Origin: Rhabdothermincola sediminis
Lineage (GTDB): Bacteria > Actinomycetota > Acidimicrobiia > Acidimicrobiales > Acidimicrobilacustridaceae
Direction: 5' to 3'
Length of the DNA: 64,000 nucleotides
NCBI RefSeq assembly: GCF_014805525.1
Contig: NZ_JACFSZ010000013.1
Location: 1-64,000 of the forward strand
Of the stretch, positions 57,840-58,849 are shown piece after piece. Position 1 is the stretch's first letter; the number at the start of each line of letters is the position of its first letter. Below the pieces are notes generated by a model. It ran no database searches and was not told where the DNA came from. It saw nothing but the letters and a program-made list of their open reading frames with translations. The position numbers were made by a program, and so were the translations under genes.

Positions 57840-58073
57840 TCACGCAGCCTCCCCATCACCGTCGACGCCGCGGCCGCTGCCGTCGCCCTTGTACGGGCGG
57901 TAGCCGCGGTTGCGAGCCTCCGCCAGCGTGTCGGGCCCGAAGCAGATGTAGGTCTCGGCCGCCATCAGCTCCTCGATGATCGACTCGTCGTCGAGGTTGT
58001 CGAGGTCGTAGACGATCTGGGTGCGCTTGTCGCCGACCCAGCGATGCTCCTCGAACTTGGTTGGACGCTGCAT
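57840..58073 (-). CDS. small conserved protein of unknown function
   Basis: A 77-residue soluble protein beginning MQRPTKFEEHRWVGDKRTQI, followed by VYDLDNLDDESIIEELM, TYICFGPDTLAEARNRGYRP and a glycine/aspartate-rich tail. The middle resembles short actinobacterial proteins of unknown function that I recognise only by pattern. ATG 58073 is 6 bases after TATGCT, supporting a leaderless start; a longer upstream frame enters the structured unit at 58129-58343 and is rejected. Confidence 0.75.
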   Translation of the reverse strand: MQRPTKFEEHRWVGDKRTQIVYDLDNLDDESIIEELMAAETYICFGPDTLAEARNRGYRPYKGDGSGRGVDGDGEAA

Positions 58074-58085: not shown

Positions 58086-58128
58086 CGACGCCGGGGGCGC
58101 GGTGCCCGCAGACCGCCCAGGAACAGCG

Positions 58129-58156
58129 GAGGGGGAGGCCCAGAGGCCTCCCCCTC
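58129..58156 (-). terminator. perfect 12-bp terminal hairpin
   Basis: The plus-strand sequence GAGGGGGAGGCC, loop CAGA, GGCCTCCCCCTC forms an uninterrupted stem. On the minus strand it follows directly after the stop of the 50-codon frame. The following bases (GCTGTTCCTG) are only moderately T-rich. Confidence 0.7.
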
Positions 58157-58272
58157 TCACGCGGAATGCTGGAAGGAACCGGATCGACGTTTCGGTACCG
58201 GGAGGGACGAGGCCCCGGCCGTCGATCTGGCGGTGGACTGGTTGGATTCCACCAAGTGGTCCAGCGAGCCGC

Positions 58273-58317
58273 TCAGCGGCCAGCCACCTCCAGGGTCCCA
58301 TGTGAACTGTCACTCAT
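58273..58317 (-). CDS. 14-residue peptide reading frame behind the extended Shine-Dalgarno
   Basis: ATG 58317 opens MSDSSHGTLEVAGR and stops at TGA 58273. The GGAGG core is 11 bases upstream within a 19-nt match to the anti-Shine-Dalgarno. The frame lies inside the loop that would form if GCTGGACCAC pairs with the Shine-Dalgarno. It could be a leader peptide or the start of a longer product made by a -1 shift into the 50-codon frame that ends at 58157. Confidence 0.4.
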   Translation of the reverse strand: MSDSSHGTLEVAGR

Positions 58318-58350
58318 CTGCTGGACCACCTCCTTTCTCTGGTGCCTGCC

Positions 58351-58356
58351 AGGATA
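58351..58356 (-). promoter_or_regulatory. -10 box (TATCCT) of the small structured unit
   Basis: TATCCT would start transcription about 5 bases before the 16S-complementary tract. No clear -35 is visible. Confidence 0.4.
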
Positions 58357-58393: not shown

Positions 58394-58849
58394 TCAGGAT
58401 CCCGGGTCGACCCCGCCCGGGACCTCGGGGCCGATGGCCCCGATGGCCCGCAGGTAGGCGACCTCGGCCTCGAGCACCTCGACCACGTCCACGTCGTCGA
58501 GCTCCAGCCCGGAGCCTTCGGCACGGCCGAGCACGTACGCCACCGCCTCGTCGTCCGCGGTGACGATCGGCCCGGCCGGCGCGGCGGCCAGGTCGTGGTC
58601 GCTCACCCCCGCGACCCCCTTGGCTTGAAGGTAGTCGAGGTGCCAGCCGATGACCGCCCGGACGTCGTCGTAGCTCAGCCGAGCGGTGAGGTCCTCCTGC
58701 AGCCGATCGGCGACGTAGTGCACCGCCTCGTCGAGGTGGAACACCGAGGTCGGCGGCTCACCGGCCAGCCGCCCGGTGACCGTGCCGACGGCGACCAGGG
58801 CGATGGCCACCACCACGATCACGGCGATCACGACGAACACGGCGATCAC
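58394..58849 (-). CDS. membrane-anchored conserved protein of unknown function
   Basis: A 151-residue protein with one N-terminal membrane helix (IAVFVVIAVIVVVAIALVAV) and a soluble helical domain (FHLDEAVHYVADRLQEDL, YDDVRAVIGWHLDYLQAKGV, VVEVLEAEVAYLRAIGAI). It is acidic overall. I cannot name the family. GTG 58849 lies 6 bases after TAAGCT, so the transcript is probably leaderless. The tail is glycine/proline-rich (PEVPGGVDPGS). Confidence 0.75.
   Translation of the reverse strand: MIAVFVVIAVIVVVAIALVAVGTVTGRLAGEPPTSVFHLDEAVHYVADRLQEDLTARLSYDDVRAVIGWHLDYLQAKGVAGVSDHDLAAAPAGPIVTADDEAVAYVLGRAEGSGLELDDVDVVEVLEAEVAYLRAIGAIGPEVPGGVDPGS

Follow-up and report, generated by a model that had tools for sequence, protein, structure and literature searches.

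A diverged RF02471 homolog in Rhabdothermincola sediminis combines an extended Shine-Dalgarno tract with a short reading frame

Known systems and the layout of the unit

In leader-peptide attenuators of the erm, trp and whiB7 type a short translated open reading frame (ORF) overlaps alternative RNA pairings, and dual-function sRNAs such as SgrS combine a small RNA, a short ORF and a terminator. The RNA family RF02471 (Ms_IGR-5) is described as an sRNA of Actinobacteria only. Homologs were detected as a transcript/sRNA in M. smegmatis (PMC10454040), as an sRNA with RNA-seq support in S. lividans (PMC8079986) and as an sRNA in S. avermitilis (PMC8780764), and a homolog is among the ribosome-protected RNAs of M. 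abscessus and M. smegmatis (PMC4974804). Our search of open-licence papers returned no function for RF02471 and no mention of its ORF. Extended Shine-Dalgarno (SD) sequences are known from Staphylococcus aureus, where they help weak start codons (PMC13009471).

The window analyzed here, a stretch of 64,000 nucleotides from R. sediminis, carries on its minus strand a unit that resembles each of these systems in part. Like the erm, trp and whiB7 leaders it has a short translated ORF lying over alternative pairings; unlike them, it has no conserved regulated downstream gene and its amino-acid sequence is unselected. The SgrS-type RNAs are likewise small and have a short ORF followed by a terminator; they base-pair with target mRNAs, and the sequence of the unit gives evidence neither of a target nor of a functional peptide. 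The S. aureus sites are similar in their extended SD-aSD pairing and weak start codons; they serve ordinary genes and one uORF, whereas the unit is a stand-alone short RNA (PMC13009471).

The closest relation is to RF02471. At the gathering threshold no Rfam family was found in the window, nor was a tRNA or tmRNA detected there. In a permissive Rfam scan the window matched RF02471 over the full model length with an E-value of 6e-7 and 36.2 bits, which does not reach the family's cut-off of 45 bits; a genome of the same taxonomic family (G006) scored 45.9 bits, a Zixibacteria-labelled locus 55.9 and an Acidobacteria-labelled locus 47.7. The order of elements is shared: SD, short ORF, GAGGTG followed by the stop, GAATCC, S3 and a 3' hairpin with GTCC. 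By these scores and this order the unit is a diverged homolog of RF02471, short of formal membership. The structure line of RF02471 contains neither of the helices P1 and B:D found here, and the window's order adds segment C. The features of the unit, from promoter to terminator, are as follows.

58351..58356, minus: -10 box TATCCT, from the sequence and the TANNNT hexamer count in relatives
58125..58344, minus: whole transcript of ~220 nt, its putative ends set by the -10 box upstream and the terminator-like hairpin downstream, its span conserved in relatives
58320..58338, minus: extended Shine-Dalgarno tract (SD1, segment A), pairing exactly with the usual 16S tail at 18/19 positions and as G-U at one
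58273..58317, minus: short ORF MSDSSHGTLEVAGR-stop of 14 codons, start/stop architecture kept in relatives
58294..58299, minus: segment B, GGGACC inside the ORF, of which GGGAC pairs with D in the position-restricted swap test; nearly invariant in the order
58285..58290, minus: GAGGTG, a second hexamer resembling an SD, 9 nt upstream of the stop codon, conserved in relatives
58279..58288, minus: 5' strand of helix P1 (GGTGGCTGGC), 9 standard pairs, from covariation
58268..58280, minus: small hairpin GCCGC-TGA-GCGGC whose loop holds the stop codon, from the sequence and the minimum free energy fold; kept in most of the order
58254..58265, minus: segment C GCTGGACCACTT, SD complement (10-12 bp), mostly confined to this order
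58242..58249, minus: conserved motif GAATCCAA just before S3, GAATCCCA in many relatives
58232..58241, minus: S3 CCAGTCCACC, 3' strand of helix P1 with one bulged T, from covariation
58198..58218, minus: 3' hairpin whose loop bears segment D (GTCCC, 58208-58204), the partner of B
58129..58156, minus: perfect 12-bp terminator-like hairpin, from the sequence

The SD tract, AGAAAGGAGGTGGTCCAGC at 58338-58320, recurs nowhere else in the window when up to 3 mismatches are allowed, and the 19-mer had no match in 100 shuffles; the observation is correct and chance is excluded. The organism's own 16S tail was looked for in its assembly and not found. In relatives the tail reads TGGATCACCTCCTTTCT, seen in 11 of 61 genomes of the order, and its carriers include two members of the same family, G004 and G006, which both have the unit. 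The tract's first 17 nt all form pairs with this tail, one being G-U, and the duplex computes to -29.4 kcal/mol. The original prediction, that the tract departs from the 16S complement at one position where G-U pairing is still possible, thus holds against the relatives' tail. The TATCCT box it placed near the SD and the perfect 12-bp hairpin it placed downstream are present at 58356-58351 and 58156-58129. Its wording that the complementarity is far beyond the needs of efficient initiation was too strong, as extended SDs are known elsewhere and aid weak starts (PMC13009471); start codons in the units are often CTG, TTG or GTG, and even ATA or ATT.

Promoter position was judged by hexamer count. 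Upstream of 146 of 185 units lies a TANNNT hexamer, usually at a fixed distance that takes one or two values; among the control windows 4 of 175 have one. Its position would place the RNA start ~8 nt before the SD core, with the SD thus at the extreme 5' end. Perfect hairpins of at least 8 bp follow 60 of the 185 units and 13 of 175 controls, pointing to a terminator in only part of the units, a share that the demand for a perfect stem may have lowered; other hairpins follow units in relatives, some with T-runs. Upstream of the unit is a 151-aa ORF (58394-58849, minus) with a hydrophobic N-terminus, for which a Pfam search gave no match.

A reading frame kept for its start and stop

The short ORF reads ATG AGT GAC AGT TCA CAT GGG ACC CTG GAG GTG GCT GGC CGC TGA. 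That the unit contains no ordinary gene had been predicted and is right for long genes, but this conserved frame of 14 codons (58317-58273) was overlooked. All 30 loci found with BLAST have GAGGTG, and in each an ATG or CTG that follows the SD begins a frame that runs uninterrupted to a stop five codons past the start of GAG. A wider search, which required the SD and GAGGTG and left the stop position free, gave 186 units. In 185 of them the ORF ends exactly as E-V-x-x-x-stop, with the stop 15 nt from the start of GAG; in the others examined this distance is 14-17 nt. The stop itself varies among the 185 (TAG 127, TGA 38, TAA 20). An in-frame start lies 5-13 nt after GGAGG in 181 of the 185, giving ORFs of 11-19 codons, 12-14 in 164 of the 181. 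ATT, ATC and ATA were also allowed as starts for these units; of them, ATC alone was picked, in three. The spacing of GAGGTG is approximately that of an SD for the codon preceding the stop.

GAGGTG lies in a different frame in three groups: L210-L214; L215; and L217 with L219. Their start (TTG, ATT or ATA) is 8 nt after GGAGG and their stop 14 or 17 nt from the start of GAG, so start and stop are kept and E-V is lost. L171, the single exception among the 186 units, has the same sequence as L215. These groups amount to natural frame-shift experiments. Separately, L216 (G109) as well as G138, G194, G204 and others show an apparent in-frame ATA start 8 nt after GGAGG and an 18-codon ORF.

Over six codons in close pairs, the synonymous fraction is 0.19, compared with 0.22 expected from random changes. 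Since this is about the value expected without selection and the frame is shifted in the groups above, start, stop and openness are kept and the amino acids are not. By these comparisons the amino acids of the ORF are not under selection, and we infer that translation as such, rather than a peptide, is what is selected. A leader-peptide attenuator with a selected peptide or regulatory codons was considered and dropped, as the synonymous fraction is neutral and the frame is changed in three groups.

Helices joining the reading frame to the 3' part

Helix P1 is formed by GGTGRCNGNN near the end of the ORF and a downstream NNCNG(y)CACC. For the pairing test the 3' strand was anchored on GAATCC and the near-invariant C6 served to fix its register, a procedure that left 150 units anchored and registered. 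At position N9, where C-G, G-C, T-A and A-T are all common, standard pairs make up 92.7% compared with 48% after shuffling of partners; the values are 97% and 85% for N7 and 59% and 37% for N10. The second helix joins B (GGAC), upstream of GAGGTG, to D (GTCC), which usually lies ~25 nt after S3. In a position-restricted swap test the units' own partners scored 14.8, swapped partners 13.0 (p 4e-11) and shuffled ones 12.5 (p 1e-19), whereas own and swapped partners could not be told apart when B:D was searched for without restriction across the entire 3' region. Compensatory changes in B:D include GGATG:CATCC and TGACCGG:CTGGTCA. The shuffle and swap tests for both helices ignore relatedness. 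Within the window's order RNAalifold predicted 25 pairs, one of them with a two-sided change; two-sided changes are few there because the sequences are too alike, and the covariation support comes from the wider comparison. Comparison of sequences thus shows two covarying helices, P1 and B:D, through which the latter half of the ORF is joined to the 3' part in the region of the stop. Compensatory changes and conservation in relatives, which the original prediction named as support for a real element, were both found, the former in P1 and B:D and the latter by BLAST (56 of 99 sampled genomes, 51 of 73 genera). Together with the expressed and ribosome-protected mycobacterial homologs (PMC10454040, PMC4974804) they bear out its claim of a real transcription unit with an RNA/ORF element.

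Segment C offers the SD a further possible partner, with at least 6 contiguous pairs in ~25 of 30 loci of the order. Masking of the SD by A:C is found mostly in this order and was rejected as a rule for the whole family. The computed folds of the window RNA are -106.0 kcal/mol with A:C, -104.9 with P1 and -96.6 with P1 and enforced B:D; enforcing B:D with P1 costs ~8-10 kcal/mol, in rough energies computed without pseudoknots. The whole fold has a z of -2.27 against shuffles. The earlier suggestion that the unit controls its own translation is plausible in the light of these models, in which the SD can pair with GCTGGACCACTT just past the stop and the competing folds differ little in computed energy.

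Range of the element and how it might work

Among 296 Actinomycetota genomes, 67 match the RF02471 model, 25 of them above the cut-off. A DNA pattern likewise matched 67 of the 296, its reversed control 2. No match was found in the 21 genomes sampled from genus g12 of the same family (G011, G016, G018-G036); genomes of this genus are small, about 1.8-2.6 Mb. A pattern scan of the genome collection returned at least 119 records, mostly Actinomycetota among the matches listed, where the other labels are Acidobacteriota (Bryobacterales, Terriglobia), Deltaproteobacteria, Nitrospinae, Nitrospirae, Spirochaetia, Zixibacteria and Sumerlaeota. Ten of these genomes were checked; each has exactly one copy and the control pattern gave 0. 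One genome (G317) carries two copies of the pattern instead of the usual one. A strict pattern was found in 10 of 199 genomes in the phylum of an Acidobacteriota locus (query included; control 1), in 1 of 198 in that of a Deltaproteobacteria locus, this being the query itself (control 1), and in 3 of 149 in that of a Spirochaetia locus (query included; control 0). The architecture apparently reaches about seven other phyla beyond actinobacteria, under labels that come mostly from metagenome bins, with contamination possible, and its range beyond Actinomycetota and Acidobacteriota rests on few loci. Repeated Acidobacteriota loci with L31 downstream and T-run terminators in some low-GC loci argue against contamination there. 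L123, labelled Acidobacteriota, has an acidimicrobial-type unit and is probably from a contaminated bin.

The architecture of the unit is well supported by these sequence comparisons. For its mode of action, we put at about even the chance that it is a stand-alone, usually single-copy RNA switch worked by the translating ribosome, and not a peptide gene or the leader of a neighbor. The unoccupied RNA would fold closed over the ORF with SD1 still able to load a ribosome. A ribosome reading to the stop would open both P1 and B:D, and the second SD, GAGGTG, would tend to hold it there. In the window's order segment C, past the stop, could cover SD1 instead and form a second gate. As a putative regulatory output, the changed fold might alter the stability of the RNA or expose its 3' part. 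A bolder version, which we hold only tentatively and consider rather unlikely, is an old, cross-phylum and gene-independent translation sensor: a near-perfect SD would recruit the ribosome, a sequence-free ORF would be translated, the second SD would park the ribosome at the stop, and the fold would report ribosome availability or the efficiency of termination/recycling.

If ribosome passage does work the fold, the element would be a simple model for sensing translation via one small RNA, and it occurs in mycobacteria and Streptomyces, where the idea is directly testable. RF02471, an sRNA family without an assigned function, carries a short ORF apparently kept for translation and not for its peptide; if the switch reading holds, 'non-coding' labels and tests for peptide conservation would both miss such elements.

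The RNA might instead act as a ribosome trap or anti-SD competitor, two roles named in the original prediction; it would hold a 30S or terminating 70S ribosome via SD1 and GAGGTG, leaving fewer free ribosomes in some states. The very stable SD1 pairing (-29.4 kcal/mol computed), a second SD-like hexamer spaced for a ribosome at the stop and the ribosome protection of a homolog (PMC4974804) fit this, but one copy per genome, as in the ten checked, would demand extreme abundance for titration and the covarying helices are left unexplained. We regard such a trap as an unlikely explanation.

Less probable still is that the unit attenuates transcription of the downstream gene or serves as its leader, in the style of erm or trp. 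The short ORF, the alternative pairings and the terminator-like hairpin would suit such a role, and a same-strand gene comes next in the window's order, in Acidobacteriota (L31) and in Nitrospinae (YtoQ). The neighbors differ between groups, however: acyl-CoA dehydrogenase and an unnamed small protein in the window's order, aminotransferase, GcvT-like and THAP4-like genes in mycobacteria, where the THAP4-like gene is on the opposite strand, PAS/GAF and pyridoxamine oxidase genes in Streptomyces, and a nitroreductase in a Zixibacteria-labelled locus. The downstream small-protein gene of the window has a TATGCT box whose end is 6 nt ahead of its ATG, and this suggests that the gene has a leaderless mRNA and its own promoter. 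With differing neighbors and this box the element is most simply a separate unit, and a leader role is disfavored. The small protein (57840-58073, minus; M-x-RPTxFExxRWxGDKR...FGPDxLxEARNRGY) is conserved at many of the order's 30 loci, where it follows the unit, and had no Pfam match.

A micropeptide gene acting through a conserved C-terminal E-V-A is very improbable: the end E-V-[A/T]-x-x is near-invariant in the main set, but the upstream codons are without purifying selection, residue 4 tracks the pairing of helix P1 and GAGGTG stands in another frame in three groups; codon statistics and the frame-shifted groups led us to reject a peptide function. An ordinary base-pairing sRNA with an incidental ORF, which would agree with the Rfam class and with the sRNAs detected in M. 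smegmatis, S. lividans and S. avermitilis, deserves hardly any weight, as the kept start, stop and frame are unexpected for an incidental ORF.
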